A stretch of DNA of 30,691 bases, taken from Cafeteria roenbergensis. Taxonomy: Eukaryota > Sar > Bigyra > Bicosoecida > Cafeteriaceae. The stretch spans positions 1-30,691 of the forward strand of contig VLTN01000116.1 of NCBI GenBank assembly GCA_008330645.1, read 5' to 3'. The notes under the pieces were generated by a model. The model searched no databases, had not been told where the DNA came from, and saw only the letters and a list, made by a program, of their open reading frames with translations. The position numbers and the translations under genes were made by a program. Of this stretch, positions 6,801 to 30,691 are shown in pieces. The stretch's first letter is position 1. Every line of letters starts with the position of its first letter.

Positions 6801-9800
6801 CTCAAGCGCCAGGTCGGCTGCTCGCTGTTCCGCCTGAGCACCTTGCGCTTGTTCCGCCGCCAACTCTAGCGTCAGCGAGCTGACTTGAGAGCGAGCGTCG
6901 CCCAAAGCCGTCTCCAGCTCGATCGTCCTCGACTCCAAGCCCACGATGCGGGTGGCGCGGGTGGCAGCCAGCTGAATTGCCAGGGCAAGGTCGCGCCTGG
7001 CGTCTCTGAGTTGGAAGTCGAGCAGCATGGAGGCATCCAGCGCCTCGTCCCGGTCAGCGCGCATCGCCTGCAGGGCGTCGTCAAGCGCCTTGAACTGAGC
7101 GAGCAGGTCAGCGCTGGCCACAGACCCGCAGCTCGCATTGCCGCTCCCTGCCCCCTCCAGCAGCTGGAGCAGCATCTGATTTTGCAGCAGCAGCGTTGTC
7201 CGCTCGTCTGCGCAGGATGAGTTGAGCCGGTTGAACCGCTGCTCCAGTCCGATGTAGTCTGGGAACTTGCAGGAGCCGTCGTCGAGCGAGCCGGGCAGGA
7301 AGTTCAGCGCCGCGTCGTACGCGCAGCCGCTAGCGAACGAGTCGCTGAATGTACACGAGCCATCATTCACTTCTGCCAAGGGGCTGAAGTTCAGTGCGAG
7401 CTGGTTTGTGCAGCCCGGGATGCGGTCGAACGCGCACATCGAGCTGTTGGACACCGTGGCGGCAGGGTTGAAGTTCTCAGCGGAGCTGTTGGTACACCCC
7501 GTCACGGGCAGTGGGCCCACGTCGTCCCCGTCAGCGTCGCAGTACTTGATGGTTCGCGGCCCAATCACGCTCCCGGCCGCCTCCACGGTGGCGTTGCAAA
7601 CGGCGATGCTCGGAGGCAGGACGACCTGCGCGCCGACGTCCACAGCAATGCGCAACCCCTTGAGCTCGGCTTGGGTTGTCACCACGCGCTGCACGGAATA
7701 CGTAGCGACCTCTGCAGAGTCCCGCACAATCGCATGCGTCTCTGTGTTGGACGAGCTCCACGACGCGGTGCCCCCGGTTACGACGACCGAAGTGCCGGCC
7801 TGCAGACGAAGGCTGCCGCTGCCGTCCCCGGAAACCTGCTCAACTTGGAGCAGAGACAATCCTGAATCGGGTGAGTGCCCCCCAGGCTTGATGCTGATGG
7901 TGGCGTGACCGAGAATCTCGAGGCGCGTGAGCAGCTCAATGCTCAGTCCGCGCCCGCCGATCTCTGTGACGCCTGAAGACAGCTTGCCTCGAGCATCCAC
8001 CAGGACAGTGCGGGTGGGAGGGACGGGTGACACAGCGCTTGGGGATGCGCACGACGGCCCCGTGCACGTGAAGGCCGTTCCAGCTGCCGCAAGTTGATCC
8101 GGTGGCCCAGACCCGGCTACAGACACGAAGGTTCCTTCAAACGTCGAGGTGCCACCCAAAAACGAGATCCGCCCACCGGAACCGCCGTTGCTGGCCCAGC
8201 CGGAGCCAACGGGCACCGCATCCCCACCTGAAGCAGAAATGACACCAGTCCCCGACAGGCGTGACGCGACCACAAGCAGCGAGCCAGCAGCTCCGCCTCC
8301 GCCGGCGACTTCACCCGCAACCGCGGCTGCAAGACCGGGAGCGCCGTCCACGGTCACGAGGCCGGCGAGGTCGACGGAGCTGGACGCGGTGAAGTTGCAC
8401 TGGATGAGCAACGACCCCCCGCCCGACCCGCCCGACGCCCCGCCCGACCCGCCCGCGCCGGCGAGCACGGGCCACTCGTAGTCGCCGCAGGTCTGTCCCG
8501 CCGGCCCGCCGCCGTGCATCCCGCCCTCGCCGGCGTCGTCGCCCGCGGAGCAGCTCGCGTCCCGCTCCCCGCCGGCGAACCCGGTGCCGTCGGCGCGGAT
8601 GGCGGCGCCGGGCGCCAGGCGCAGTCCGTCGCGCGCGACCAGCCGCAGCTGCGTCGAACGCGGACCCAGCGCCGTCACTCGCGACGTGGCCAGCACGTCC
8701 ACCTGCGCCGCGCCCACCGACCGCACGCCCGCGTCGAGCGTGAGGGACGCGTCGCCGAGGAGGCGCAGCGACTCGAAGCCGTACCGGCCCTGCGGCCGCC
8801 TCGCCCCGCCCGCCGACGAGCACGACGCCACGCCGGCGGCGCACGCCCACGCGGCCCACTCGCCGTCCGCGCCGGTACCGGTAGCGTTGTCGATCCACAC
8901 GCCGCCCGACCCGCCCAGCGACACGGCGGCGCCCGCATCCAGCGTGAGGTGCCGCACGCCCGACAGCTCGCCGCGCACGGTCACATTGCCGGCCCGCTGG
9001 ACATGATAACGCTCGGAGCCAGCAGCAGCCGTCCGTGCTCTGCAACACGACAAGGTTCAGCGACTGCAGCGCCAGCGCGAATGGCTGCTCGAGGCAGCTG
9101 ACAGCGGACTGAGCGCCTGATGATGCCACGACGTCCAGTCTGGGTGCCAAGCGGCCTCCGCCACGGCTGAAGCTCGAGGTCGTGACACGCACGGCAAGCC
9201 TCGACCGCGACACGCCGGGTCCGGAGACGTTGCCCAGCACGATGCTGGACCGGTCGTCGGGCATGGTCTCGGGGTGGAAGGCCGAGGGGGCGCGGACGGA
9301 GAAGTTGGTCGGCGACCCCAGGTACAGGTGGTCGATCACGAACCGCGCCCGGGGCCGCACGGCGTTGAGCTGTGCGAAGTAGGGCGTGGCGGGGAGGTCG
9401 CCGTTGTCGATCTCCAGACGACGCGTGCCGCACCCGTGCGGGTTCGACTCCGACTCCGACTCCGACCCCGGCGCCGCCCGGCCGTCGCACCACAGCGTCG
9501 TGCCGGCCGCGGCCTGGGCGGACCACGATCCCTGCGCCGCGCCGGCCCGCGTGCGCACGGAGCCCGTGGCGGCGGCCCAGGCGGGCTGGTACGCGTGCAG
9601 GGCGATCCGGCCGCCGGACCCGCCGTTGGCGTTGCTGCTCGCCGACGCGGCGCCTCCGTCGGCGGACAGGGTGCCCGTCACGGCCAGCCGCCCGGCCACC
9701 ACCACCAGCGACCCGCCCGCGCCGCCCGCGCCGCTCGACCCGGACCCGGCGTGGCCGTCCACGGTCACGAGGCCGGCGAGGTCGACGGAGCTGGACGCGG

Positions 9801-12800
9801 TGAAGTTGCACTGGATGAGCAACGACCCCCCGCCCGACCCGCCCGACGCCCCGCCCGCCCCCGCCCGCGCCGGCGAGCACGGGCCACTCGTAGTCGCCGC
9901 AGGTCTGTCCCGCCGGCCCGCCGCCGTGCATCCCGCCCTCGCCGGCGTCGTCGCCCTCGAAGCAGCTCGCGTCCCGCTCCCCGCCGGCGAACCCGATGCC
10001 GTCGGCGCGGATGGCGGCGCCGGGCGCCAGGCGCAGTCCGTCGCGCGCGACCAGCCGCAGCTGCGTCGAACGCGGACCCAGCGCCGTCACTCGCGACGTG
10101 GCCAGCACGTCCACCTGCGCCGCGCCCACCGACCGCACGCCCGCGTCGAGCGTGAGGGACGCGTCGCCGAGGAGGCGCAGCGACTCGAAGCCGTACCGGC
10201 CCTGCGGCCGCCTCGCCCCGCCCGCCGACGAGCACGACGCCACGCCGGCGGCGCACGCCCACGCGGCCCACTCGCCGTCCGCGCCGGTGCCGGTGCCGGT
10301 GGCGTTGTCGATCCACACGCCGCCCGACCCGCCCAGCGACACGGCGGCGCCCGCATCCAGCGTGAGGTGCCGCACGCCCGACAGCTCGCCGCGCACGGTC
10401 ACCGTGGTGGCGCGCAGCCACACCGCCCACGCCAGCATCAGCCGTCCGTGCTCCGCCACGGTCAGCGACCGCAGGCCCAGCGCGAAGGGGTCCGCGGCCG
10501 AGGACTGCGCCGGGCCCACGGTCCAGTCGGTGCCGGCCGCCACGGCGAAGCTCGAGGCGGACACGCCGGGTCCGGAGACGTTGCCCAGCACGATGCTGGA
10601 CCGGTCGTCGGGCATGGTCTCGGGGTGGAAGGCCGAGGGGGCGCGGACGGAGAAGTTGGTCGGCGACCCCAGGTACAGGTGGTCGATCACGAACCGCGCC
10701 CGGGGCCGCACGGCGTTGAGCTGTGCGAAGTAGGGCGTGGCGGGGAGGTCGCCGTTGTCGATCTCCAGACGACGCGTGCCGCACCCGTGCGGGTTCGACT
10801 CCGACTCCGACTCCCCCGGCGCCGCCCGGCCGTCGCACCACAGCGTCGTGCCGGCCGCGGCCTGGGCGGACCACGATCCCTGCGCCGCGCCGGCCCGCGT
10901 GCGCACGGAGCCCGTGGCGGCGGCCCAGGCGGGCTGGTACGCGTGCAGGGCGATCCGGCCGCCGGACCCGCCGTTGGCGTTGCTGCTCGCCGACGCGGCG
11001 CCTCCGTCGGCGGACAGGGTGCCCGTCACGGCCAGCCGCCCGGCCACCACCACCAGCGACCCGCCCGCGCCGCCCGCGCCGCTCGACCCGGACCCGGCGT
11101 GGCCGTCCACGGTCACGAGGCCGGCGAGGTCGACGGAGCTGGACGCGGTGAAGTTGCACTGGATGAGCAACGACCCCCCGCCCGACCCGCCCGACGCCCC
11201 GCCCGACCCGCCCGCGCCGGCCAGCACGGGCCACTCGTAGTCGCCGCAGGTCTGTCCCGCCGGCCCGCCGCCGTGCATCCCGCCCTCGCCGGCGTCGTCG
11301 CCCTCGAAGCAGCTCGCGTCCCGCTCCCCGCCGGCGAACCCGGTGCCGTCGGCGCGGATGGCGGCGCCGGGCGCCAGGCGCAGTCCGTCGCGCGCGACCA
11401 GCCGCAGCTGCGTCGAACGCGGACCCAGCGCCGTCACTCGCGACGTGGCCAGCACGTCCACCTGCGCCGCGCCCACCGACCGCACGCCCGCGTCGAGCGT
11501 GAGGGACGCGTCGCCGAGGAGGCGCAGCGACTCGAAGCCGTACCGGCCCTGCGGCCGCCTCGCCCCGCCCGCCGACGAGCACGACGCCACGCCGGCGGCG
11601 CACGCCCACGCGGCCCACTCGCCGTCCGCGCCGGTGCCGGTGCCGGTGGCGTTGTCGATCCACACGCCGCCCGACCCGCCCAGCGACACGGCGGCGCCCG
11701 CATCCAGCGTGAGGTGCCGCACGCCCGACAGCTCGCCGCGCACGGTCACCGTGGTGGCGCGCAGCCACACCGCCCACGCCAGCATCAGCCGTCCGTGCTC
11801 CGCCACGGTCAGCGACCGCAGGCCCAGCGCGAAGGGGTCCGCGGCCGAGGACTGCGCCGGGCCCACGGTCCAGTCGGTGCCGGCCGCCACGGCGAAGCTC
11901 GAGGCGGACACGCCGGGTCCGGAGACGTTGCCCAGCACGATGCTGGACCGGTCGTCGGGCATGGTCTCGGGGTGGAAGGCCGAGGGGGCGCGGACGGAGA
12001 AGTTGGTCGGCGACCCCAGGTACAGGTGGTCGATCACGAACCGCGCCCGGGGCCGCACGGCGTTGAGCTGTGCGAAGTAGGGCGTGGCGGGGAGGTCGCC
12101 GTTGTCGATCTCCAGACGACGCGTGCCGCACCCGTGCGGGTTCGACTCCGACTCCGACCCCGGCGCCGCCCGGCCGTCGCACCACAGCGTCGTGCCGGCC
12201 GCGGCCTGGGCGGACCACGATCCCTGCGCCGCGCCGGCCCGCGTGCGCACGGAGCCCGTGGCGGCGGCCCAGGCGGGCTGGTACGCGTGCAGGGCGATCC
12301 GGCCGCCGGACCCGCCGTTGGCGTTGCTGCTCGCCGACGCGGCGCCTCCGTCGGCGGACAGGGTGCCCGTCACGGCCAGCCGCCCGGCCACCACCACCAG
12401 CGACCCGCCCGCGCCGCCCGCGCCGCTCGACCCGGACCCGGCGTGGCCGTCCACGGTCACGAGGCCGGCGAGGTCGACGGAGCTGGACGCGGTGAAGTTG
12501 CACTGGATGAGCAACGACCCCCCGCCCCGACCCGCCCGACGCCCCGCCCGACCCGCCCGCGCCGGCGAGCACGGGCCACTCGTAGTCGCCGCAGGTCTGT
12601 CCCGCCGGCCCGCCGCCGTGCATCCCGCCCTCGCCGGCGTCGTCGCCCTCGAAGCAGCTCGCGTCCCGCTCCCCGCCGGCGAACCCGGTGCCGTCGGCGC
12701 GGATGGCGGCGCCGGGCGCCAGGCGCAGTCCGTCGCGCGCGACCAGCCGCAGCTGCGTCGAACGCGGACCCAGCGCCGTCACTCGCGACGTGGCCAGCAC

Positions 12801-18800: not shown

Positions 18801-21800
18801 GTACGAAAGGAAGGCCCACTGAGTCGAAGTCAGGCGGCGCCTGAACCGACAGATTCGTCGCGGTCTCGAGGTGCAGCTCGTCGATCACGAAGCGGCGCCG
18901 ACCTCCCGCGATGGACAGCTGCGGGTAGTACGGCGTCTCCGGCAGATCGCCGTTGTCCAGCTCCAGCCGCCGCACGCCGCAGCGGTGCGCGTTCGCCTCG
19001 CCCTCCAGCGCCGCCTCGGACTCGCTCACCCGCCCGTCGCACCAGTAGACCGTGCCCGCGGCGGCCTGCGGACTCCACGACCCGTACGCCGGCCCGGCAC
19101 GAGCACGCACGGTGCCGGTGAAGGTGGTGTTTCGCGAGGGCTGGTAGGCGTGGATGGCGATGCGCCCGCCGGAGCCGCCGTTGCTGTCATCCGTCTCGTA
19201 TCCGTCCGCCCCAGCGCCGCCGTCGGCCGAGAGGGTGCCGGACCCCGACAGCCGCGAGGCCACCACCAGCAGCGACCCGCCCGCTCCCCCGCCGCTCGCC
19301 GACCCCGAGCCGGAGGTGAAGGCGCGCGCCCGCTCTGCCCGTCCACGGACACGGTGCCGTTCAGCTCCATCGCGCTCGACTCCGTGGCGTTGCACACCAG
19401 CATCACCGACCCGCCGCCCGACCCGCCGTCGTGCTGGCCCGACGACCCGCCCGCGCCGGCGAGCACGGGCCACTCGTAGTCGCCGCATGTCTTGCCCTCC
19501 GGCCCGCCGCCGTGCATGCCGCCGTTGCGGGCCCCGCCGTCGGAGCAGCTGGGGTGTCGGGCGTTGGACCCGTATCCGACGCCCTGTGCTCGGATGGAGG
19601 CGCCGGGAGCCAGGAGCAGGCGGTCGCGAGCGATCAGCCGCAGCTGTGTCGTCCGCGGTCCCAACGCGGTCATCGTCGCTGCGCCTTGCATGCTCAGCTC
19701 GGCGGCCGCGAGCGATTGCACGCCGGCATCGAGCACGAGCGACGCATCACCGGACAGCTGCAGCCTGGCGAATGCGTACCAGCCCCGCTCCCTGACAATC
19801 GACCCGTTCGTTTGCACCGCACAAGCTGCCCGCTCAGCAGCGCAGGCCCAGCCCTTCCACCCCGTAGTGTCGTCGGTGACATTCGCGACCCATGAGCCGC
19901 CCGAGGATGTGAGATGGGCCTTGGTCCCGCGATCCAGCGTCAGCGACTCCACTCCCGTCAGCTCGCCACGCACCGTCAACGACATGCCTCGTCGCGTGAC
20001 GGTGACGGGCGCGAGCTTCAGCTTCCCGAGTGGCTCTACCCCCACGCTGTGGAGATCGAGCAAGAAGGGCTCATCGACCGGAAGAGCAGGATCCGGGCCA
20101 AGAGCCCAGTCGGTGCCGTTCTTCGCCACGAGAGGCGACCCAGAAAGCCCCGGCCCCGACATGCGAGACACGGACAGCGAGGTTCGGTCGCCTGGTGCTG
20201 CAACCGAGTCGAAGTCAGGCGGCGCCTGAACCGACAGATTCGTCGCGGTCTCGAGGTGCAGCTCGTCGATCACGAAGCGGCGCCGACCTCCCGCGATGGA
20301 CAGCTGCGGGTAGTACGGCGTCTCCGGCAGATCGCCGTTGTCCAGCTCCAGCCGCCGCACGCCGCAGCGGTGCGCGTTCGCCTCGCCCTCCAGCGCCGCC
20401 TCGGACTCGCTCACCCGCCCGTCGCACCAGTAGACCGTGCCCGCCGCCGCCTGCGGACTCCACGACCCGTACGCCGGCCCGGCACGAGCACGGACAGTGC
20501 CGGTGAAGTCTGACCGGGAGGGCTGGTAGGCGTGGATGGCGATGCGCCCGCCGGAGCCGCCGTTGCTGTCCAGCGTGCTGTAGCCGTCCGCCCCGGCGCC
20601 GCCGTCGGCCGAGAGGGTGCCGGACCCCGACAGCCGCGAGGCCACCACCAGCAGCGACCCGCCCGCTCCCCCGCCGCTCGCCGACCCCGAGCCGGAGGTG
20701 AAGGCGCGCCCGCTCTGCCCGTCCACGGACACGGTGCCGTTCAGCTCCATCGCGCTCGACTCCGTGGCGTTGCACACCAGCATCACCGACCCGCCGCCCG
20801 ACCCGCCGTCGTGCTGGCCCGACGACCCGCCCGCGCCGGCGAGCACGGGCCACTCGTAGTCGCCGCATGTCTTGCCCTCCGGCCCGCCGCCATGCATGCC
20901 GCCGTTGCGGGCCCCGCCGTCGGAGCAGCTGGGGTGTCGGGCGTTGGACCCGTATCCGACGCCCTGTGCTCGGATGGAGGCGCCGGGAGCCAGGATCAGG
21001 CGGTCGCGAGCGATCAGCCGCAGCTGTGTCGTCCGCGGTCCCAACGCGGTCATCGTCGCTGCGCCTTGCATGCTCAGCTCGGCGGCCGCGAGCGATTGCA
21101 CGCCGGCATCGAGCACGAGCGACGCATCACCGGACAGCTGCAGCCTGGCGAATGCGTACCAGCCCCGCTCCCTGACAATCGACCCGTTCGTTTGCACCGC
21201 ACAAGCTGCCCGCTCAGCAGCGCAGGCCCAGCCCTTCCACCCCGTAGTGTCGTCGGTGACATTCGCGACCCATGAGCCGCCCGAGGATGTGAGATGGGCC
21301 TTGGTCCCGCGATCCAGCGTCAGCGACTCCACTCCCGTCAGCTCGCCACGCACCGTCAACGACATGCCTCGTCGCGTGACGGTGACGGGCGCGAGCTTCA
21401 GCTTCCCGAGTGGCTCTACCCCCACGCTGTGGAGATCGAGCAAGAAGGGCTCATCGACCGGAAGAGCAGGATCCGGGCCAAGAGCCCAGTCGGTGCCGTT
21501 CTTCGCCACGAGAGGCGACCCAGAAAGCCCCGGCCCCGACATGCGAGACACGGACAGCGAGGTTCGGTCGCCTGGTGCTGCAACCGAGTCGAAGTCAGGC
21601 GGCGCCTGAACCGACAGATTCGTCGCGGTCTCGAGGTGCAGCTCGTCGATCACGAAGCGGCGCCGACCTCCCGCGATGGACAGCTGCGGGTAGTACGGCG
21701 TCTCCGGCAGATCGCCGTTGTCCAGCTCCAGCCGCCGCACGCCGCAGCGGTGCGCGTTCGCCTCGCCCTCCAGCGCCGCCTCGGACTCGCTCACCCGCCC

Positions 21801-24800
21801 GTCGCACCAGTAGACCGTGCCCGCGGCGGACTGCGGACTCCACGACCCGTACGCCGGCCCGGCGCGCGCGCGGACGGTGCCGGTGAAGGCGACGGCGCGC
21901 GAGGGCTGGTAGGCGTGGATGGCGATGCGCCCGCCGGAGCCGCCGTTGCTGTCATCCGTCTCGTAGCCGTCCGCCCCGGCGCCGCCGTCGGCCGAGAGGG
22001 TGCCGGACCCCGACAGCCGCGAGGCCACCACCAGCAGCGACCCGCCCGCTCCCCCGCCGCTCGCCGACCCCGAGCCGGAGGTGAAGGCGCGCCCGCTCTG
22101 CCCGTCCACGGACACGGTGCCGTTCAGCTCCATCGCGCTCGACTCCGTGGCGTTGCACACCAGCATCACCGACCCGCCGCCCGACCCGCCGTCGTGCTGG
22201 CCCGACGACCCGCCCGCGCCGGCGAGCACGGGCCACTCGTAGTCGCCGCATGTCTTGCCCTCCGGCCCGCCGCCGTGCATGCCGCCGTTGCGGGCCCCGC
22301 CGTCGGAGCAGCTGGGGTGTCGGGCGTTGGACCCGTATCCGACGCCCTGTGCTCGGATGGAGGCGCCGGGAGCCAGGACCATGCGGTCGCGAGCGATCAG
22401 ACGCAGCTGTGTCGTCCGCGGGCCTACAAGCGTCATGTTGCTTGTTCCAAGAAGCTCCATGTGTTGTGTTTCTATCATCGCCACCTGTGGCTCAACCTTC
22501 GCCCGTGAGGTGTCTTGCAGTCGCAGCGTTGTCACTGAGAACATCCCAATGCTGTCAGGACCTTCGCATGCACTGCTGCCTTCGCAGACAACGCTTGAGT
22601 TGGCTCCAAAACTGAAGTTGGCCTGCCCACGGGCGCCAAATGTTACCGTTGATCCTTGCCGCAGCTCCAGCAAACGTACGCCGATCAAGGAGCCATTGAT
22701 GACCAGATGAGCATTCTCAAGAACAACATTCGGCGGCATTGTCAGCGAGCTGAGTGGCTCAATCACCATAGTGGTGGACCGAAGGAACAACCATTCAGAG
22801 TTGCTGTCCTTGGAGTCGTAGAAACTCAGGCTCGTGCCAGGGAGAAGCGGGAACTCTGAGGCTGCTGCACCTGGCCCTTCCACCGTTCCAAGCACGAGTG
22901 AGGTCCGAATGGGAGACGATGGGTCGGCCAAGAACTCTTTGGACGGTTGCAGCGAAATGTTTGTTGCAGATCCAATGTACAGCTCGTCAATGACGAAGCG
23001 AGTTCTGCCTTCGCTTGTGGAAAGCTGCGGAAAGTACGAAGTCAGGTTCAAGTCGCCGTTGTCCAGTTCCAGGCGACGGGTCAAACACCGGAACCGATTG
23101 GTGATCTGGTTGGCTTCCAGTCCACTCACCCGCCCGTCGCACCAGTACACTGTGCCTGCGGCGGCCTGCGGGCTCCAGCGCCCTGAGGCTGGCCCTGCTC
23201 GCGCCCGTACAACTCCCGAAAAGTTTGCACGCGCAGCTTTGTACACATGGAGAGCGATTCGGCCCCCGGAGCCGCCGTTGCTCCCAAAGTCTTCGAAACC
23301 ATTGGCACCCGACCCGCCGTCGGCCGAGAGGGTGCCGGACCCCGACAGCCGCGAGGCCACCACCAGCAGCGACCCACCCGCTCCCCCGCCGCTCGCCCAG
23401 TCAGTTGAGCCGGCCTTGCCACTCCCAGCAAGCCCGTCAACGGACACGGTACCGTTCAGCTCCATCGTGCTCGACTCCGTGGCGTTGCACACCAGCATCA
23501 CCGACCCGCCGCCGGACCCGCCAGCGGCAAAGCTGCCTGTGCCGCCACCGGGGCCACGCAGCACGGGCCACTCGTAGTCGCCGCAGGACTTGCCAGCCGG
23601 TCCACCGCCGTGCAGACCTCCGTCGCGTGGCAGTGTGGCCTGGCAGGACGGGTGGAAATCGTCACTTTCGTACCCGGTGCCGACAGCGAGAATGCTCGAC
23701 CCGGACCCCAGTCGGAAGTGATCTCGTACCTCGAGCCGGACCTGGTCGCTTTGGGGACCCTCAATCGACACCCTCGCTGACCCCGACATGTCCAACTCCG
23801 CTGCGCCCAGTGCCTTCACGCCAGCGCCCAGAGTCACGGCTGAGCTGTCGAGCAGACGGAGCTTGTCGAAGGCGTAGCGGCCTTGAGCGAACGTGCGAGG
23901 AGCTGCCTCATCGGAACTATTGGTCGGGGGCGAGCATGCCATCAATGGCCAGGCACAAGCCCAGTTGTACACACCTGTTGGATCAGGCGAAATCTCGCTC
24001 AGCTTGTCGAACCGAGGAGTGCTGCCACCAGATGCCACCAGTGACACTTTCGATTCGCCTCCGCCAGACAACACTTCGCCCCCCTCGAGAAGTCCAGCAA
24101 CGTTCAGTTGCGAATTCTCGAGTCGGACCTGCGATGGAAGGGTCAGCCATCCGCCCTCTGCGACCGAAACTGTCGTGCCAACGAGGATCAGCTGATCGGT
24201 CAAGCGCTGTCCTGAGTTCCACGTCAAATGAACAGACTTTGGAACATGCAAACTTACGAAAGTCGAGCTTGGCCCCAAAACACTGAAAATTGTGAGCGAT
24301 ACAATGACCAGAGGCGGGGGTTCAGGTGAGGGCATCGAGAATTGCGTCGTCGATGCCAGGAAAAGCTCATCGATCACGAAGCGGCGCCGACCTCCCGCGA
24401 TGGAGAGCTGCGGGTAGTACGGCGTCTCCGGCAGATCGCCGTTGTCCAGCTCCAGCCGCCGCACGCCGCAGCGGTGCGCGTTCGCCTCGCCCTCCAGCGC
24501 CGCCTCGGACTCGCTCACCCGCCCGTCGCACCAGTAGACCGTGCCCGCGGCGGCCTGCGGACTCCACGACCCGTACGCCGGCCCGGCGCGCGCGCGGACG
24601 GTGCCGGTGAAGGCGACGGCGCGCGAGGGCTGGTAGGCGTGGATGGCGATGCGCCCGCCGGAGCCGCCGTTGCTCCCAAAGTCGTCCCGACCATTGGCAC
24701 CCGACCCGCCGTCGGCCGAGAGGGTGCCGGACCCCGACAGCCGCGAGGCCACCACCAGCAGCGACCCACCCGCTCCCCCGCCGCTCGCCGACCCCGAGCC

Positions 24801-27800
24801 GGAGGTGAAGGCGCGCCCGCTCTGCCCGTCCACGGACACGGTGCCGTTCAGCTCCATCGCGCTCGACTCCGTGGCGTTGCACACCAGCATCACCGACCCG
24901 CCGCCCGACCCACCCAAGGAGCTGCTGCCTGGACCGCCACCGGGGCCACGCAGCACGGGCCACTCGTAGTCGCCGCAGGACTTGCCAGCCGGTCCACCGC
25001 CGTGCAGACCTCCGTCGCGTGGCAGTGTGGCCTGGCAGGACGGGTGGCGGGCATTGCTGCCATATCCGGTGCCGACAGCGAGAATGCTCGACCCGGACCC
25101 CAGTCGGAAGTGATCTCGTACCTCGAGCCGGACCTGGTCGCTTTGGGGACCCTCAATCGACACCCTCGCTGACCCCGACATGTCCAACTCCGCTGCGCCC
25201 AGTGCCTTCACGCCAGCGCCCAGAGTCACGGCTGAGCTGTCGAGCAGACGGAGCTTGTCGAAGGCGTAGCGGCCTTGAGCGAACGTGCGAGGGGCTGCCT
25301 CATCGGAACTATTGGTCGGGGGCGAGCATGCCATCAATGGCCAGGCACAAGCCCAGTTAAGCCAGCTGCTCGCCGGCAGGGCCGCAGGGTCAAATGGCTG
25401 GCTGACAACTGTCTCTCCTGTGCTTCTGAGCACAAGGCTCGCAGCTGCGCCGACAGTGATGCTGTTAGCTCCAGCAAGCTGCCCTCCGATGTCCACCGTC
25501 GTGTTGGCAAGCGTTGTCCATGCTGAGAGCGTCACACGGCTACCAGGATCGGAAACCAGAGATGTGCCGTTGAGTGTCAGACTGGGGCTCACGGTCTCTG
25601 AACCGAAGATGCTAACTGAAGTGCCGGCGAAGCTGCGGATGGTTGACTTTGGCAGCCCTGGGCCGCTCATGGACGAAATGACGAGGTAGACCCACGAATC
25701 ATCTGGAACCCACTCCGAGTAAGGAGTGTCGGGGGTCTGCACTGACAGCGTCGTCGCGGTCTCGAGGTGCAGCTCGTCGATCACGAAGCGGCGCCGACCT
25801 CCCGCGATGGACAGCTGCGGGTAGTACGGCGTCTCCGGCAGGTCGCCGTTGTCCAGCTCCAGCCGCCGCACGCCGCAGCGGTGCGCGTTCGCCTCGCCCT
25901 CCAGCGCCGCCTCGGACTCGCTCACCCGCCCGTCGCACCAGTAGACCGTGCCCGCGGCGGCCTGCGGACTCCACGACCCGTACGCCGGCCCGGCTCGCGC
26001 GCGGACGGTGCCGGTGAAGTTTGTTCGGGAGGGCTGGTAGGCGTGGATGGCGATGCGCCCGCCGGAGCCGCCGTTGCTGTCATCCGTCTCGTAGCCGTCC
26101 GCCCCGGCGCCGCCGTCGGCCGAGAGGGTGCCGGACCCCGACAGCCGCGAGGCCACCACCAGCAGCGACCCACCCGCTCCCCCGCCCGGTGCAAAGTCGA
26201 AGCTCGATGAGCCTAGCACGCCGCTCTGCCCGTCCACGGACACGGTGCCGTTCAGCTCCATCGCGCTCGACTCCGTGGCGTTGCACACCAGCATCACCGA
26301 CCCGCCGCCCGACCCACCCAAGGAGCTGCTGCCTGGACCGCCACCGGGGCCACGCAGCACGGGCCACTCGTAGTCGCCGCAGGACTTGCCAGCCGGTCCA
26401 CCGCCGTGCAGACCTCCGTCGCGTGGCAGTGTGGCCTGGCAGGACGGGTGGCGGGCATTGCTGCCATATCCGGTGCCGACAGCGAGAATGCTCGACCCGG
26501 ACCCCAGTCGGAAGTGATCTCGTACCTCGAGCCGGACCTGGTCGCTTTGGGGACCCTCAATCGACACCCTCGCTGACCCCGACATGTCCAACTCCGCTGC
26601 GCCCAGTGCCTTCACGCCAGCGCCCAGAGTCACGGCTGAGCTGTCGAGCAGACGGAGCTTGTCGAAGGCGTAGCGGCCTTGAGCGAACGTGCGAGGGGCT
26701 GCCTCATCGGAACTATTGGTCGGGGGCGAGCATGCCATCAATGGCCAGGCACAAGCCCAGTTAAGCCAGCTGCTCGCCGGCAGGGCCGCAGGGTCAAATG
26801 GCTGGCTGACAACTGTCTCTCCTGTGCTTCTGAGCACAAGGCTCGCAGCTGCGCCGACAGTGATGCTGTTAGCTCCAGCAAGCTGCCCTCCGATGTCCAC
26901 CGTCGTGTTGGCAAGCGTTGTCCATGCTGAGAGCGTCACACGGCTACCAGGATCGGAAACCAGAGATGTGCCGTTGAGTGTCAGACTGGGGCTCACGGTC
27001 TCTGAACCGAAGATGCTAACTGAAGTGCCGGCGAAGCTGCGGATGGTTGACTTTGGCAGCCCTGGGCCGCTCATGGACGAAATGACGAGGTAGACCCACG
27101 AATCATCTGGAACCCACTCCGAGTAAGGAGTGTCGGGGGTCTGCACTGACAGCGTCGTCGCGGTCTCGAGGTGCAGCTCGTCGATCACGAAGCGGCGCCG
27201 ACCTCCCACGATGGACAGCTGCGGGTAGTACGGCGTCTCCGGCAGGTCGCCGTTGTCCAGCTCCAGCCGCCGCACGCCGCAGCGGTGCGCGTTCGCCTCG
27301 CCCTCCAGCGCCGCCTCGGACTCGCTCACCCGCCCGTCGCACCAGTAGACCGTGCCCGCGGCGGCCTGCGGACTCCACGACCCGTACGCCGGCCCGGCGC
27401 GCGCGCGGACGGTGCCGGTGAAGGCGACGGCGCGCGAGGGCTGGTAGGCGTGGATGGCGATGCGCCCGCCGGAGCCGCCGTTGCTGTCATCCGTCTCGTA
27501 GCCGTCCGCCCCGGCGCCGCCGTCGGCCGAGAGGGTGCCGGACCCCGACAGCCGCGAGGCCACCACCAGCAGCGACCCGCCCGCTCCCCCGCCGCTCGCC
27601 GACCCCGAGCCGGAGGTGAAGGCGCGCCCGCTCTGCCCGTCCACGGACACGGTGCCGTTCAGCTCCATCGCGCTCGACTCCGTGGCGTTGCACACCAGCA
27701 TCACCGACCCGCCGCCCGACCCGCCGTCGTGCTGGCCCGACGACCCGCCCGCGCCGGCGAGCACGGGCCACTCGTAGTCGCCGCATGTCTTGCCCTCCGG

Positions 27801-30691
27801 CCCGCCGCCGTGCATGCCGCCGTTGCGGGCCCCGCCGTCGGAGCAGCTGGGGTGTCGGGCGTTGGACCCGTATCCGACGCCCTGTGCTCGGATGGAGGCG
27901 CCTGCTGCAAGCCCGAGCCAGCTGCGCGCTTGCACACGCAAGGCCGCCTCCCGTGGCCCCTGCAGCGTGATTGACGATGTCCCGGCTAGATCTAGTTCGG
28001 CCGCAGCAAGGCCCGCCACACCCGGACCGAGGACGACGGACGCTCCTTCCCTTGCCTTGAACGCCTCAAACGCATACCATCCATGCGATGTTGACCCGAG
28101 CGGATGGGAGCTGTTGCTGGAGCTGGTGCATGGTGACGCACCGATGTCACATGCCCACTCCTGCCACGACAAGTCTTGCGCGCTGGCCGTCTGGTTGCTC
28201 ACTTCCAAGCGCGTGTGTCCTGATCCAAAGAGACCGAGAGCACCTGAAGCGGCCACTGAAACTCGAGACACCCCGAGCCACAGGCCGCGCACGCTCAACG
28301 ACGAAGACGCGATCTGGACTTCCGAAGGTGTGCGCAAACTTGCGAATTGAGCAACATCGATAGCAAGCATGTCAAGAGCGAACCGCTCTGGCGAGAGCCA
28401 CCCGAGCTCCCAATCCGTCCCAGCCACGATGGCGAACGTTGACTGTGCGAGGCCTGTGCCACTGAGATTCCCGAAGCGCACGGACAGCCTGTGCAGCTCG
28501 GGTGCGTTGGCGACGAAGAATGATGACGCTGGGACCGACAAGCGCATCGGTGACGCAACCACCAGCTGATCGATCGCCACGATTGAGCGCAACGGCAACA
28601 GAGCCAGCTGCGGGTAGTACGGCGTCTCTGGCAGGTCGCCGTTGTCCAGCTCCAGCCGCCGCACGCCGCAGCGGTGCGCGTTCGCCTCGCCCTCCAGCGC
28701 CGCCTCGGACTCGCTCACCCGCCCGTCGCACCAGTAGACCGTGCCCGCGGCGGCTTGCGGACTCCACGAACCGTACGCCGGCCCGGCGCGCGCGCGGACG
28801 GTGCCGGTGAAGTTTGCCCAGGAGGGCTGGTAGGCGTGGATGGCGATGCGCCCGCCGGATCCGCCGTTGCTGTCCAGCGTGCTGTAGCCATTCATTCCCG
28901 CGCCGCCGTCGGCCGAGAGGGTGCCGGACCCCGACAGCCGCGAGGCCACCACCAGCAGCGACCCACCCGCTCCCCCGCCGCTCGCCGACCCCGAGCCGGA
29001 GGTGAAGGCGCGCCCCGCTCTGCCCGTCCACGGGACACGGTGCGTTCAGCTCCATCGCGCTCGACTCCGTGGCGTGCACACCAGCATCACCGGACCCGCC
29101 GCCCGACCCGCCGTCGTGCTGGCCCGACGACCCGCCCGCGCCGGCGAGCACGGGCCCACTCGTAGTCGCCGCATGTCTTGCCTCCGGCCCGCCGCCGTGC
29201 ATGCCGCCGTGCGGGCCCCGCGTCGGAGCAGCTGGGGTGTCGGCGTTGGAACCCCGTATCCGACGCCTGTGCTCGGATGGAGGCGCTGCTGCAAGCCCGA
29301 GCCAGCTGCGCGCTTTGCACACGCAAAGGCCGTCTCCGTGCCCCTGCAGCGTGATTGACGATGTCCCGGCTAGATCTAGTTCGGCAGCAGCAAGGCCGCC
29401 ACACTCGGACCGACGACGACGGACCGCTTCCTTCCTTGCCTTGAACGTCTCAAACGCATACCATCCATGCGATGTTGACCCGAGCGGATGGAGCTGTTGC
29501 TGGAGCTGGTGCATGGTGACGCACCCGATGTCACATTGCCACTCCTGCCACGACAAGTCTTGCGCGCTGGCCGTCTGGTTGCTCCTTCCAAGCGCGTGTG
29601 TCCTGATCCAAAGAGACTGAGAGCACGCTGAAGCGGCCACTGAAACTCGAACACCCCGAGCCAACAGGCCGCGCACCTCAAACGACGAACGACGCGATCT
29701 GGACTTCCGAAGGTGTGCGCAAACTGCGAATTGAGCAACATCGATAGGGCAAGCATGTCAAGAGCGAACCGCTCTGGCGAGAGCCACCCGAGCTCCCAAT
29801 CCGTCCCAGCCACGATGGCGAACGTTGACTGTGCGAGGCCTGTGCCACTGAGATTCCCGAAGCGCACGGACAGCCTGTGCAGCTCGGGTGCGTTGGCGAC
29901 GAAGAATGATGACGCTGGGACCGACAAGCGCATCGGTGGACGCAACCACCAGCTGCTCGATCGCCACGATTGAGCGCAACGGCAACAGAGCCAGCTGCGG
30001 GTAGTACGGCGTCTCCGGCAGGTCGCCGTTGTCCAGCTCCAGCCGCCGCACGCCGCAGCGGTGCGCGTTCGCCTCGCCCTCCAGCGCCCGCCTCGGACTC
30101 GCTCACCCGCCCGTCGCACCAGTAGGACCGTGCCCGCGGCGGCCTGCGGACTCCACGACCCGTACGCCGGCCCGGCGCGCGCGCGGACGGTGCCGGTGAA
30201 GGCGACGGCGCGGGAGGGCTGGTAGGCGTGGATGGCGATGCGCCCGCCGGATCCGCCGCCGTTGCTGTCGTAGCTGCTCCAGCCGTCCGCCCGGCGCCGC
30301 CGTCGGCCGAGAGGGTGCCGGACCCCGACAGCCGCGAGGCCACCACCAGCAGCGACCCGCCCGCTCCCCCGCCGCTCGCCGACCCCGAGCCGGAGGTGAA
30401 GGCGCGCCCGCTCTGCCCGTCCACGGACACACGGTGCCGTTTCAGCTCCATCGCGCTCGACTCCGTGGCGTTGCACACCAGCATCACCGACCCGCCGCCC
30501 GACCCGCCGTCGTGCTGGCCCGACGACCCGCCCGCGCCGGCGAGCACGGGCCACTCGTAGTCGCCGCATGTCTTGCCCTCCGGCCCGCCGCCGTGCATGC
30601 CGCCGTTGCGGGCCCCGCCGTCGGAGCAGCTGGGATGTGTCGGGCGTTGGACCCGTATCCGGCACCAGCTGCGAGAATCGATGCACCCGGG
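370..30691 (-). CDS. Giant modular repeat protein with C-terminal multi-pass membrane domain (5' partial, frame interrupted by indels)
   Basis: The minus strand encodes one continuous domain series of about 10,000 residues. In order these are 17 Gly-rich units with CGDYEWPVL, three DGSC-type repeats, a coiled coil, about 14 Cys-rich repeats, an IPT/TIG-like segment, a beta-sandwich-like segment, a spacer, about eight hydrophobic helices and a short tail ending at TGA 370-372. The start codon and signal peptide lie beyond the right edge. No introns are needed: each time the frame breaks, homologous protein resumes at once in another frame, leaving no room for an intron. Breaks are at about 29,015, 19,325, 16,935, 16,003, 15,235, 12,527, 9,860, 9,050, 8,984, 5,343, 4,212, 3,867, 3,487, 3,195, 3,030, 2,425, 2,300, 2,225 and 2,120-700. 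The protein is probably a cell-surface fibre or receptor. Function is inferred from architecture only; I do not recognise a named gene. A split into several genes, or a pseudogene, is possible but less likely. Confidence 0.7.
890..2400 (-). other. C-terminal polytopic membrane domain (about eight helices)
   Basis: Hydrophobic segments in order are HTVVLLSTVGLALLQGVI (2,343-2,400), SAIASALPSLAVVAWALL (2,240-2,303), LGAVSLAAAEAAFALAFGFL (1,817-1,891), ALANRLAVAMAAVASIYFSS (1,520-1,600), LAGWLLLFGFSLGFVALQA (1,403-1,471), AMLAKQVLVLTLLLA (1,079-1,138), AVKTVVVVGRAVVLAMALAF (989-1,054) and LVGILMVAVQLALALLVFAL (890-964). After helix 2 comes QFAVMLSQLHLTAPPVLRR (2,165-2,225). This resembles the F..ml..l.l..P..L signature between early helices of TRP-like or polytopic C-terminal domains of giant protist surface proteins. 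A basic loop (GSVKAKAGGKRGSLVPTK) separates helices 3 and 4. Small frame shifts occur at about 2,425, 2,300, 2,225 and 2,120; the rest reads in one frame. Channel activity is an inference. Confidence 0.65.
2430..3030 (-). other. Low-complexity juxtamembrane spacer
   Basis: One frame is open through SFGAGVGAVAGFAEAATARA, SSGGAALVGSSGASGF, GARMVASAVVPPPSGG, SVVLEGTIVCAAPCPPPG and GVCNASADAAALPVAVFGD. It is rich in Ala, Gly, Ser and Pro, with a few cysteines, and no family is recognised. It leads directly into the first hydrophobic helix at 2,400. Confidence 0.45.
3136..3215 (-). other. CGxC...DARGLCC...LDSCGIC motif
   Basis: LSGCGVC is followed, one base out of frame at about 3,195, by VDARGLCCEPPLWLDSCGIC. 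Paired CGxC motifs around D.xGLCC....LDxCGxC are found near the membrane in giant algal and protist surface proteins. They are probably disulfide- or metal-knotted linkers. The motif is short but distinctive. Confidence 0.55.
3296..3620 (-). other. Invasin/filamin-like beta-sandwich segment
   Basis: Motifs LLQPAPRAVLVDDFGQAV, SSTIVRIAAFLG, PSLSVAARSGVVQFDGLGVA and LRLVLSAETG match the pattern '..P.V.v.D.fG..v..s..tV.a.l ... G.v.F..L.v......L.l.ls', seen in repeated Ig-like domains of invasins and of large algal surface proteins. The segment is split by a frame break at about 3,487 within TTTCTCGGGCGAGCGGGG. The family call is an inference from strand-like periodicity and the conserved DDFG and VVQFDGL motifs. 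Confidence 0.5.
3870..3995 (-). other. IPT/TIG-like segment
   Basis: VLQAGAPFVSSVSPASGASG followed by VGSSVRLSGGNFASSPS has the hallmarks of an IPT/TIG Ig-like fold start: P.V.SVSP..G...G..V.L.G.NF. The expected second half (VADAASRVRLAG, CSPPADSFIDCGVPS, GSVVLVLEYSVSG) follows in another frame after a break at about 3,867. IPT domains are extracellular or membrane-proximal Ig-like modules in plexins and many protist receptors. The assignment rests on motif spacing only. Confidence 0.6.
4115..6575 (-). other. Cys-rich repeat region (about 14 repeats)
   Basis: Repeats follow C-x-(D/N)-G-x-x-x-G-x-E-(T)-x-x-D-C-G-G-x-C-x-x-C-x-x-G-x-x-C-x(4-5)-D-C-x-S-G-x-C-x(4)-C. Good copies are CSDGRRNGKETGVDCGG with CSAGTDCASRSC, and CADGIRQGSP with DTDCGGTCGPC. 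The family is a recurrent extracellular Cys module of myxobacterial and protist surface proteins, and each copy should hold four or five disulfides. The first six copies are in the frame of the coiled coil. An extra C at 5,342-5,343 shifts to a second frame carrying repeats 7-13, and a lost base at about 4,209-4,214 shifts to a third carrying repeat 14 (GDCGGKCAPC). Continuity of the Cys pattern across both breaks argues that they are spurious. Confidence 0.8.
5344..8983 (-). CDS. Uninterrupted reading-frame segment: last repeat units, DGSC repeats, coiled coil and first six Cys-rich repeats
   Basis: About 1,213 codons are open between a one-base loss at about 8,984 (GTCAC-ATT against the GGTCACCGTGG of sister copies) and an extra C at 5,342-5,343. 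The frame runs from VTVRGELSGVRHL of unit 16, through unit 17, into three DGSC repeats (7,263-7,499), a heptad-rich coiled coil (6,606-7,088) and six Cys-rich repeats. This single segment physically joins the Gly-rich repeat array to the Cys-rich region, so the two belong to one protein and not to neighbouring genes. The Cys-rich pattern resumes in another frame directly past 5,343 with the motif CDNGVADGLEHGVDCG. Confidence 0.8.
6606..7088 (-). other. Coiled-coil stalk
   Basis: About 160 residues lack Gly and Pro runs and show heptad spacing of Leu, Ile and Ala with Glu, Arg and Gln between. Examples are LLAQFKALDDALQAMRADRD, RIVGLESRTIELETALGDA, SLTLELAAEQAQGAQAEQRA and LEMIVKLEAQLAGLELEAQ. 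A shorter helical lead-in (EQRFNRLNSSCADERTTLLL, about 7,150-7,250) precedes it. In an otherwise beta-rich ectodomain this would be an oligomerising stalk between the repeat fibre and the Cys-rich region. Oligomer state is not inferable. Confidence 0.8.
7263..7499 (-). other. Three DGSC-type repeats
   Basis: Three short repeats share the pattern G-C-(T/A)-(N/Y)-x-x-A-x-N-F-x-P-x-(A/S)-x-V/L-x-(N/D)-(D/S)-(G/S)-(S/M)-C-x-F. They read GCTNSSAENFNPAATV then SSMCAF, GCTNQLALNFSPLAEV then DGSCTF, and GCAYDAALNFLPGSL then DGSCKF. This matches the widespread C(T/M)D..A.NYNP.A..DDGSC repeat of large secreted proteins in bacteria, algae and large DNA viruses, thought to be a small disulfide-bonded extracellular module. 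The first copy is degenerate (SSMC for DGSC). Confidence 0.8.
7540..8467 (-). repeat. Repeat unit 17 (terminal, degenerate unit)
   Basis: The unit begins with the A motif LLIQCNFTASSSVDLAGL, continues with LLVVASRLSGTGVISASGG (closer to B units) and GGSGGRISFLGG, and then loses the pattern. YWCDGR and LELDNGDL are absent. The rest (about 7,540-8,090) keeps beta-strand-like motifs such as LSIELLTRLEILGHATISI and GSLRLQAGTSVVVTGG and ends in TIKYCDADGDD. It has much lower repetitiveness and more balanced base use than the array, as expected of an old capping unit at the end of a repeat fibre. Confidence 0.75.
8415..8454 (-). repeat. G-rich linker tract (potential G-quadruplex), repeated in each A unit
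   Basis: The coding strand carries eight runs of three or more G separated by 1-4 bases, encoding the GGSGGASGGSGGG linker. Equivalent tracts lie at about 9,825-9,867, 11,173-11,213, 12,517-12,558, 13,862-13,902, 15,200-15,241 and 16,544-16,584. Three of the seven carry a one-base gain (15,233-15,237, 12,525-12,528, 9,857-9,862). Quadruplex formation is predicted from the run pattern only. Confidence 0.6.
8468..9879 (-). repeat. Repeat unit 16 (A type with divergent middle)
   Basis: This unit is 1,412 bp. The front and rear are A consensus, with the longest Ser-Glu run (SESESESNPH, about 9,447-9,470). The stretch at about 9,020-9,200 is unrelated to other A units: TTSSFSRGGGRLAPRLDVV, SCLEQPFALALQSLNL and GRLLLAPSVIMSSG. 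Three breaks occur: in the G-rich linker (9,857-9,862), at about 9,050, and a lost base at about 8,984. The rear ends with SCSAGDD where other A units have SCFEGDD. Confidence 0.82.
9880..11226 (-). repeat. Repeat unit 15 (A type)
   Basis: The length is 1,347 bp (449 codons), fully in frame. The extra codon is in the Ser-Glu microrepeat (PGESESESNPH at about 10,795-10,820, against PGSESESNPH). A neighbouring C/G substitution at 11,222 (GGCCAGCACG against GGCGAGCACG) is confined to this copy. Confidence 0.88.
11227..12571 (-). repeat. Repeat unit 14 (A type)
   Basis: The length is 1,345 bp: the 1,344 period plus one extra C in the C-run at 12,525-12,528. That run lies in the GGSGGASGGSGGG linker coding tract and breaks the frame. 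The remaining sequence is near-identical to unit 13. Confidence 0.85.
12572..13915 (-). repeat. Repeat unit 13 (A type, reference copy)
   Basis: This unit is exactly 1,344 bp (448 codons) with no frame break, so it is the best reference for the A repeat. Features in order are GGSGGG linker, LIQCNFTASSSVDLAGL, AGRLAVTGTLSADGG, GGSGGRIALHAYQPAW, LWCDGR, PGSESESNPHGCG, RRLEIDNGDLPATPYF, GTDWTVGPAQ, TVTVRGELSG, WACAAGVASC, GRYGFESLRLLGDASLTLD and CGDYEWPVL. Confidence 0.9.
13916..15254 (-). repeat. Repeat unit 12 (A type)
   Basis: The length is 1,339 bp. It has one Gly-Thr hexamer fewer than the sister units (IDNATGTGADG at about 14,320-14,345, against IDNATGTGTGADG), giving 1,338, plus one extra C in the G-rich linker tract at 15,233-15,237 that breaks the frame. 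All other positions match the A consensus. Confidence 0.85.
15255..16597 (-). repeat. Repeat unit 11 (A type)
   Basis: The length is 1,343 bp, one base short of the 1,344-bp period. The missing base is a G at about 16,002 (CGGGG-TGAAGG against CGGGGTGGAAGG in all sister copies), which breaks the frame inside APSAFHPETMPDD. A substitution at 15,964 (CAGTACGATG against CAGCACGATG) also marks this copy. Otherwise it is practically identical to units 12-15. Confidence 0.85.
16598..17990 (-). repeat. Repeat unit 10 (B front, transitional rear, frame break)
   Basis: The constant half is B type, but the unit runs into the A array: its end reads GFAGGERDASCFEGDD as in A units, not GYGSNARHPSC. The variable half encodes SSVVIGKVIGPAMQRSQVI, LTVRGSLSGAERLTIDTG and GRYAFASLRVLGDASLTLG. 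Between 16,925 and 16,945 the frame shifts and the expected W..WAC-x6-C segment is absent (TWAQQSNA is followed at once by PAAGRYAF). This looks like a real or assembled deletion of roughly 15-20 residues at the B/A boundary. Confidence 0.78.
17991..19465 (-). repeat. Repeat unit 9 (B type, variable half zeta, longest unit)
   Basis: At 1,475 bp this is the longest unit. The length equals 491 codons plus two bases, matching the two-base gain in the GC run at 19,321-19,330 (GGCGCGCGCCCG against GGCGCGCCCG in sister units). The variable half is unique: FVRTVVLLGSISGGG, FGCRLTVQGQLSGVDELLL, WQKWACEASKNSC and AYGFKLVTLLGNATLTVD. It includes an extra insert (about 18,540-18,680) reading SSMLVELTARIFSIHSVPL that most units lack. 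Confidence 0.82.
19331..29012 (-). CDS. Longest uninterrupted reading-frame segment of the giant gene (repeat units 2 to 9, in part)
   Basis: This stretch of about 3,200 codons has no break. It begins within unit 2 after an extra C in a C-run at 29,013-29,016 and ends at a two-base gain in a GC run at 19,321-19,330. It covers the B-type repeat units: GGSGGRIAIHAYQPS, YWCDGR and LELDNGDL recur in each, alternating with variable halves. Potential N-glycosylation sequons such as CNATES and LNGTVS are frequent, as expected of an extracellular protein. An open frame this long, with amino-acid-level repeat conservation and no nonsense changes, is the best single proof that the minus strand is coding. 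The first in-frame GTG at 28,950-28,952 lies in the middle of a repeat and is not a credible start. Confidence 0.8.
19466..20845 (-). repeat. Repeat unit 8 (B type, variable half epsilon)
   Basis: This unit has 1,380 bp (460 codons) in frame and is the tandem sister of unit 7. The near-identical stretch runs from the CGDYEW motif through the whole variable half and into the constant half, to about 20,440 against 21,820. It then differs at the insertion after HAYQPSR (SDFTG here, AVAFTG in unit 7) and in the STLDSNGG/ETDDSNGG linker. These small variants are shared with other, non-adjacent units. Confidence 0.88.
20846..22228 (-). repeat. Repeat unit 7 (B type, variable half epsilon)
   Basis: This unit has 1,383 bp (461 codons) in frame. 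The variable half encodes VAAPGDRTSLSVSRMSGPG, SLTVRGELTGVESLTLDRG, WKGWACAAERAAC and GWYAFARLQLSGDASLVL. It aligns with unit 8 at an offset of exactly 1,380 bp with only a few substitutions, for example CAGGATCAGG at 20,991-21,000 against CAGGAGCAGG at 19,611-19,620. Confidence 0.88.
22229..23563 (-). repeat. Repeat unit 6 (B type, variable half delta, most diverged B unit)
   Basis: At 1,335 bp (445 codons) this is the shortest B unit. Its constant half is itself partly diverged: VDGLAGSGKAGSTDWASGGG, IALHVYKAARANFSG and CLTRRLELDNGDLNLTSYF. It has a lower GC content than its neighbours and more varied codons. Its Cys pair is C-x5-C (VVCEGSSACEG) where the others have C-x6-C, and it lacks the usual W..WAC. 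It looks like an older unit that has escaped most of the homogenisation affecting the rest of the array. Confidence 0.85.
23564..24955 (-). repeat. Repeat unit 5 (B type, chimera: unique front and beta rear)
   Basis: This unit has 1,392 bp (464 codons) in frame. The first part of its variable half (about 23,960-24,370) is unique: VSLTIFSVLGPSSTFVSLH, QLNVAGLLEGGEVLSGGG and SPDPTGVYNWACAW. From CAWPLMAC (about 23,955) leftwards it is near-identical to the rear of the beta units 3 and 4, including FAQGRYAFDKLRLLD and HPSCQATLPRDGG. The abrupt change from unrelated to near-identical DNA marks a recombination or conversion junction inside the unit. Confidence 0.85.
24956..26359 (-). repeat. Repeat unit 4 (B type, variable half beta)
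   Basis: This is a second copy of the beta unit, again 1,404 bp and in frame. The part that differs from unit 3 is in the constant half: the linker after the VSVDGQSG motif reads VLGSSSFDFAPGGG where unit 3 has RAFTSGSGSASGGG (about 26,190-26,225). The variable halves are essentially the same DNA. A small constant-half difference inside otherwise duplicated DNA points to local conversion after duplication. Confidence 0.88.
26360..27763 (-). repeat. Repeat unit 3 (B type, variable half beta)
   Basis: This unit is 1,404 bp, exactly 468 codons, with no frame break. The variable half encodes PYSEWVPDDSWVYLVISS, GQLAGANSITVGAAAS and the Cys pair CAWPLMAC, then GRYAFDKLRLLD. The tail differs from alpha units: HPSCQATLPRDGGLHGGG and WPVLRGPGGG in place of HPSCSDGGARNGGMHGGG and WPVLAGAGG. 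It is almost identical to unit 4 at an offset of 1,404 bp. Confidence 0.88.
27764..29150 (-). repeat. Repeat unit 2 (B type, variable half alpha)
   Basis: The constant half lies on the right, with GAGMNGYSTLDSNGGSGG as its local variant. The variable half (about 27,900-28,600) encodes FGNLSGTGLAQSTFAIV, GLWLGVSRVSVAASG and the Cys pair ACDIGASPC. It ends in GYGSNARHPSC and CGDYEWPVL. It is the clean sister of unit 1, and the pair is evidently a tandem duplication. Length is 1,387 bp, with single-base gains and losses at its right end only (29,013-29,150). Confidence 0.85.
29013..30691. other. Indel-dense, probably low-quality window end
   Basis: Compared with the sister DNA of unit 2, at least ten one-base differences occur within about 280 bp. 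They include an extra C at 29,013-29,016, an extra G at 29,032-29,034, a missing C at about 29,042, a missing T at about 29,078, an extra G at about 29,091, an extra C at about 29,155 and a missing C at about 29,181. More follow to about 29,700 and from 30,090 to 30,640 (extra C 30,090, extra G 30,126, extra AC and T near 30,428-30,441). Almost all are length changes, not substitutions, which is typical of uncorrected reads near a contig end. Confidence 0.7.
29151..30546 (-). repeat. Repeat unit 1 (B type, variable half alpha, indel-laden copy)
   Basis: This unit repeats unit 2 almost base for base but carries many one-base gains and losses in its constant half and around 29,160-29,760. The stretch 29,760-30,050 is nearly clean and encodes the alpha variable half (FGNLSGTGLAQSTFAIVAGT). 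The reading frame is therefore recoverable only in pieces. The 145 bases to its right (30,547-30,691) are the end of a preceding unit, reading PGAS, GYGS and then CSDGGARNGGMHGGG. They show that at least one more unit lies beyond the window. Confidence 0.75.

Follow-up and report, generated by a model that had tools for sequence, protein, structure and literature searches.

A giant repeat array of predicted beta-helix with a TRP-like membrane domain in Cafeteria roenbergensis, a candidate membrane-anchored adhesin

What kind of protein is encoded by an array of very large, regular repeats in the flagellate Cafeteria roenbergensis, and what might it do at the cell surface? The array lies on contig C116 (GenBank VLTN01000116.1), which we analysed whole (the window, 30,691 bp) against the other contigs of the genome searched (36,303,456 bp, 167 contigs; denoted C with a number). 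The CrBVI assembly is described as having 170 contigs, 36,327,047 bp and 70.1% guanine plus cytosine (GC) (PMC6972860); the C. roenbergensis of that paper is a bicosoecid stramenopile, for which later papers use the name C. burkhardae. A first-pass annotation of the sequence had proposed an undescribed surface-fibre module. The array leads into a multi-pass membrane domain matching the TRP family, and the simplest reading is an adhesin or tether fused to a base resembling Flc and Pkd2.

The repeat array

A degenerate DNA pattern for CGDYEWP matched 16 sites in the window, every one on the minus strand, and 85 sites on 10 contigs genome-wide; the reversed control pattern gave 0 matches. One further unit start, the seventeenth, lies at 29173 and is one base off the pattern. 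A profile built from six intact units placed units along 30690–8010 on the minus strand only; at an expect value (E) of 0.01 it returned no row for the plus strand of the window. The 17 units of the first-pass annotation were thereby recovered, the last of them truncated and divergent, and its unit length of 445–491 residues agrees with the measured spacing of 1335–1475 bp (445–492 residues). The conserved segments it had listed also held up. In an alignment of 11 rows (eight complete and three partial units of the 17, the six units whose reading frame is broken being left out), GTLSADGG, NGGSGGRIA (listed as GGSGGRIA), WCDGR and RRLE.DNGDL showed no variation, and CGDYEWPVL, described as invariant, was present in all eight complete rows. 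The interval 7540..30691 assigned to the repeat does contain the array, but it does not give the limits of the gene, whose coding sequence reaches to about 373 and leaves the contig at 30691. The gene is on the minus strand, as are all window features given below, and the window would cover its middle and its 3′ part.

In units 1 and 2 (27786–30691; starts 30568 and 29173) the frame is broken several times as far as about 29045, and upstream of them the gene probably continues into contig C75. Units 3 to 8 (19488–27785; starts 27785, 26381, 24977, 23585, 22250 and 20867) share one open frame of 3339 amino acids (aa) from stop to stop (19029–29045), and units 9 and 10 (16620–19487; starts 19487 and 18012) are frame-broken. 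Units 11 to 16 (8490–16619) are of a second type, mostly about 1340 bp long, within which units 13 and 15 are near-identical (nonsynonymous divergence, dN, 0.001; synonymous divergence, dS, 0.005). Unit 17 (8010–8489), the last, is cut short after its glycine-rich core, where GGRISFLGG replaces GGRIALHAY.

A membrane domain shared among arrays

Downstream of the array lies a multi-pass membrane domain (854–2279, frame-broken), which matched the Pfam family TRP (PF06011) over 884–1231 with E 1.7e-7 and 30.9 bits, over the gathering cut-off of 28.5; in a genome-wide search the same copy scored 33 bits. The matched part of the profile is positions 288–402. A C-terminal tail follows (373–853), whose end we placed by reference to the C16 copy, which is near-identical and has an open frame.

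The association of units and membrane domain recurs. The domain lies downstream on the same strand on eight of the 10 contigs with CGDYEWP sites; the remaining contigs are C9 and C75, where the gene reaches contig ends. Contig C80 has two arrays, one with a downstream membrane domain and another that runs off the contig. On C8, C26 and C61 the units and the domain stand in a single open frame. With the C26 membrane domain as query, the genome gave 24 matches on 15 contigs, some of them partial, and PF06011 gave 16, of which 11 were over the cut-off, two of those only with neighbouring matches. The PF06011 matches on C7, C1 and C48 look like another protein set; in C7 and C48, cysteine motifs immediately precede the membrane part.

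The Cafeteria protein resembles the TRP/Flc/Pkd2 family in this C-terminal membrane region over the cut-off and in the tail behind it. It differs in that no ML-like TRP_N domain was found, as judged from the C8 protein, and in that its putative extracellular part comprises thousands of residues of predicted beta-helix and of cysteine-rich repeats.

Mosaic units within the array

For comparison by nucleotide identity, the aligned units were divided into the glycine-rich segment A, from CGDYEW to FVIDEL, the variable segment B, and segment C, from WAC to the following CGDYEW. Identities in A, B and C are 99.5%, 43.7% and 53.5% for units 3 and 7, 92.7%, 37.4% and 95.6% for units 3 and 5, and 99.8%, 78.2% and 99.5% for units 10 and 11 of C9. 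Among the 28 pairs formed by the eight window units that are open throughout (of 17), seven combine an A above 90% (91–99.5%) with a B below 45% (37–44%), three are alike throughout (3–4, 7–8 and 13–15), and other pairs are 61–77% identical even in A.

Over 190 pairs of 20 units, mean nonsynonymous (pN) and synonymous (pS) distances per 30-column block were 0.14–0.22 and 0.28–0.40 in columns 1–180, and 0.40–0.51 and 0.58–0.63 in columns 210–390; one block of only 15 pairs (0.60, 0.71) was set aside. Synonymous distance thus declines along with amino-acid distance, which suggests that segment A has been homogenised by conversion or recent duplication, not by selection alone. The mosaic looks as if cassettes had been swapped. 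Among the matches listed for three B cassettes, those of 98% identity or more were confined to the window and the collinear part of C75, and the rest were at 41% or lower, which points to mosaicism within arrays, no transfer between loci being seen.

Extent of the gene

Both ends of the window overlap other contigs. Positions 19136–30691 align to C75 2–11559 at 98.55% identity over 11.6 kb, with both contig ends reached (70 mismatches, 98 gap columns), and positions 1–12333 align to C16 590119–602474, the last base of C16, at 98.47% over 12.4 kb. The upstream part of C75 has 12 further CGDYEWP sites, and ahead of the first of the C75 sites, at C75 28966, is a Met, after which comes a stretch that by eye resembles a signal peptide. 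If the three contigs are one locus, as we infer from these overlaps, the gene would span about 47.7 kb and encode about 15,900 residues with about 29 units, an estimate that bears out the earlier guess of an extracellular chain of more than 8,000 residues.

Coding status of the broken frames

The coding frame of the window shifts among all three minus-strand frames through indels of 1–2 bases, and units compared side by side likewise differ by 1–2 bases, some of the differences lying in G/C runs. Window 1–8600 is 99.07% identical to C16, which is open over 2130 aa where the window is broken. The two differ by 21 indels, none longer than 2 bases, and between 2023 and 2407 there are 12 of them; no indel lies in a run longer than 4, so the breaks are not chiefly long-homopolymer errors. 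The size of the indels also rules out introns as the source of the breaks in window 1–8600 and in the side-by-side units, and no intron was seen in the gene.

A decaying array with genuine frame breaks would account for their number in the window and for breaks elsewhere, since C16 changes frame once between its 2130-aa and 1691-aa frames, C9 loses the frame after its 6029-aa frame, and the minus-strand array of C75 is spread over several frames. The breaks of the window, C16, C9 and C75, however, sit at differing places, and the C16 copy is open across a region broken in its near-identical counterpart. Paralogous arrays also stay open over long distances, namely 12 units in 6029 aa on C9, 6451 aa on the plus strand of C75, and 3364 aa on C8, which is open throughout. 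The assembly, moreover, was built from 13–45× PacBio RSII data with polishing (PMC6972860). In eight pairs (3600 codons), codon positions 1, 2 and 3 carry 1300, 1058 and 1720 differences. GC at the third codon position is 79% compared with 65% and 59% at the other two, and in a set of 17 pairs dN was always lower than dS. From these patterns and the open paralogues we conclude, at the level of consensus sequence rather than of reads, that the broken frames are coding sequence with consensus errors; a pseudogene is very unlikely.

Predicted fold and relatives of the unit

On the fold, which the first-pass annotation had named as a check, structure prediction gave a parallel beta-helix, with short parallel strands stacked along the unit, and not disorder. 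A two-unit model reached a predicted template-modelling score of 0.64, with predicted local confidence (pLDDT) below 50 at residues 413–463, around CGDYEWPVL; the motif lies inside a module, in this stretch of low confidence, and does not mark the unit boundary. Foldseek returned 117 matches against the PDB and 257 against BFVD, none under E 0.001 in either. The right-handed parallel beta-helix adhesins TibA, pertactin, Ag43 and tapirin were 10–13% identical to the unit, at Foldseek E 0.3 or worse, and presumably differ from the Cafeteria protein in secretion route and anchoring. Sequence searches of the PDB gave no match for translation P0001 at E 1, nor, at E 0.1, for the profile of the unit; four matches of P0011 at E 0.59–0.96 were taken as chance.

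Scans of the unit-bearing translations found no Pfam model that covers the unit, in keeping with the earlier remark that no named family was recognised for it, but the glycine-rich core is weakly matched by a named NCBIfam model, AgmC_N (NF047640). In P0001 the match had E 2.3e-5 and 23.5 bits against a curated cut-off of 275, with a best stretch of positions 247–372 only, and eight of 11 units matched at E up to 1. The best genome match (E 7.1e-11, positions 211–406 of 412) was in a related giant; the best genome score was 45.2 bits, and every match lay under the cut-off. The likeness to AgmC of myxobacteria is one of the glycine-rich core, tempered by these scores and the short P0001 stretch. 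Two further Pfam candidates for P0001 were rejected as sums of weak repeats. DUF6255 scored 44 bits against 25 (E 2.9e-11), and none of its stretches passed alone, the best being 17 residues (13–29 of 70); Ig_4 scored 21.4 against a cut-off of 30.1.

Strict peptide patterns gave 30 matches in viral sequences, 0 of them confirmed, and 63 and 592 in two prokaryote scans, again with 0 confirmed; given the strictness of the patterns, which missed even AgmC, these counts do not show that relatives are absent. A literature search, with most subscription journals and bioRxiv outside its coverage, recognised no description of the giant protein and found no papers on AgmC.

Regions between the array and the membrane domain

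By eye, the beta-helix region comes to its end within 7287–8010, which also has three GCTN..A.NF.P.A-type repeats (7287–7499) and had no Pfam hit in P0003. After it comes a coiled-coil-like stretch (6636–7253). An SMC identity was rejected for this stretch, whose counterpart in the C8 paralog scored far below the cut-offs of the NCBIfam SMC models, and coiled coil is all that we assign. Cysteine-rich repeats of the form C.DG...G.ETDVDCGG..C..G..C....DC.SG.C occupy 4328–6605 in two frames, with no Pfam hit in P0003 or P0004. A stretch at 3620–3968, picked out by eye, we take to resemble IPT/TIG; its C8 counterpart has no such Pfam hit. In the scans of P0003, P0004 and the C8 protein, Pfam named none of the post-array regions except the membrane domain.

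Interpretation and alternatives

The repeats, their mosaic pattern, the shared membrane domain and its PF06011 match are the observations from which we tentatively propose, with a little less than even confidence, a giant membrane-anchored adhesin or tether with a TRP/Flc-like base and roles in binding and signalling. The signal-peptide-like start, sequons, cysteines and membrane domain would place the repeats outside the cell. A signal peptide would direct the secretion of the protein, and the C-terminal multi-pass domain related to TRP/Flc/Pkd2 would anchor it in the membrane. Under an outer rod of about 29 parallel beta-helix modules, probably stapled by conserved cysteines, the coiled coil and the cysteine-rich repeats would form a stalk; assuming about 4.8 Å per coil, the rod would presumably be well over 100 nm long. 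In each module, the glycine-rich half, homogenised among many units, would be the scaffold and the variable beta-helix cassette the binding face. The rod could then be a long, multivalent adhesin or tether whose most likely targets are bacterial prey or surfaces; a pull or binding event could be relayed to the TRP-like base as a signal, with possible roles in tension sensing and calcium. Of the surface-fibre module first suggested, the giant extracellular array would stand, but the multi-pass domain at its end makes the protein more than a fibre.

In Chlamydomonas, the filament MST1 and its channel are separate proteins, and MST1 is not known to be a beta-helix array. The likeness there, an analogy and not evidence, is of a long extracellular mastigoneme filament attached to a polycystin channel in the PKD2 complex (PMC10846610). 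Fission-yeast Pkd2 is reported to conduct calcium under membrane stretch (PMC11277609).

Several observations weigh against our proposal. An earlier paper describes fission-yeast Pkd2 and Trp1322 as calcium-permeable and not mechanosensitive (PMC3139647). Only 111–115 of 426 PF06011 positions are matched in the window, C8, C16, C61, C89 and C109 copies, and the C26 and C8 domains fall under the cut-off in some scans (C26 at 21.6 bits; C8 at 28.3, just below, in one scan and 31.8 in another). A scan of the entire C8 protein gave no N-terminal TRP_N domain even at E 1, and a genome search for it gave 0 matches, though its control likewise matched nowhere; a subgroup of fungal Flc proteins is reported to be mostly without TRP_N too (PMC9600462). 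No PDB chain matched the membrane-domain profile at E 1, and the C8 membrane region shows seven separate peaks by crude hydropathy versus the nine helices of Pkd2. Signal peptides were called by eye, that of C8 being below the hydropathy threshold and that of C9 reaching it. The C75 and C16 joins could link different alleles, heterozygosity and the removal of redundant contigs being described for this assembly (PMC6972860), and in the second-type block shifted alignments, 3.2 kb in length, score 97.9–98.4%, so the number of units there may be off by one or two.

A purely structural coat or a flagellar or attachment filament, its membrane domain an anchor only and its repeats giving length and stiffness with neither sensing nor specific binding, would suit the near-identical repeats, the scaffold-like glycine-rich core and the partial TRP match. 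A spacer, however, needs no cassettes at 37–44% beside segments at 91–99.5%, as in seven of the 28 window pairs, and the membrane domain recurs on 15 contigs; we consider this alternative unlikely, if a serious one. Still less probable is a combinatorial recognition array, in which gene conversion shuffles cassettes between conserved segments and so changes recognition of self, prey or virus. It finds support in the mosaic pairs 3–7, 3–5 and C9 10–11 and in the synonymous distance that also falls in the conserved half. Against it stand the pairs alike throughout (3–4, 7–8, 13–15), the dN below dS in all 17 pairs, and the three cassettes found at 98% or more, among the matches listed, only in the window and C75, probably the same locus.

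Slightly more doubtful again is an extension of our proposal to one-chain mechanoreceptor-adhesins in a single-cell predator, with up to about 29 modules on a TRP-like channel and cassettes re-dealt by gene conversion between fixed scaffolds into a line-specific recognition array. A carbohydrate-active enzyme is barely credible. Polysaccharide lyases and epimerases share the beta-helix, and AlgE4, RbmB and polygalacturonase are among the structure matches, yet the likeness is by fold alone, adhesins rank equally high, no lyase or epimerase family passed the Pfam cut-off in P0001, P0002, P0003, P0004, P0007, P0010 or P0011, and CBM_11 reached only E 0.57 (10.6 bits versus a cut-off of 27).

To our knowledge, little has been learned at the molecular level about the means by which bacterivorous flagellates hold their prey and sense it. 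In Cafeteria, a model for grazing and giant viruses (PMC6972860), a giant beta-helix family that carries a TRP-like membrane domain would offer a concrete candidate for a sensor or receptor at the cell surface. Since several arrays lie at contig ends, such genes may be absent from gene catalogues or fragmented in them.

Other related loci

A second array on C75 (131825–150267, plus strand) has about 14 units in one 6451-aa frame, which runs off the contig end, so this gene is longer than assembled. Open frames of 11,219–12,260 aa with AgmC-like glycine-rich modules lie at C10:682688-717790, C43:246369-262493 and C64:169369-191151; those on C10 and C43 include the membrane domain in the same frame, and the C10 frame starts with a signal-peptide-like stretch. 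A unit fragment stands alone on the minus strand of C66 (67555–68262); it is divergent, has an internal stop codon and is possibly a relic. A third architecture appears at C25:287188-287523, where a glycine-rich beta-helix-like stretch precedes CxxC-type cysteine repeats and a hydrophobic segment. At C26:90542-96000, more than 1,600 codons are free of stops in all six frames, suggesting a long simple or tandem repeat rich in GC.
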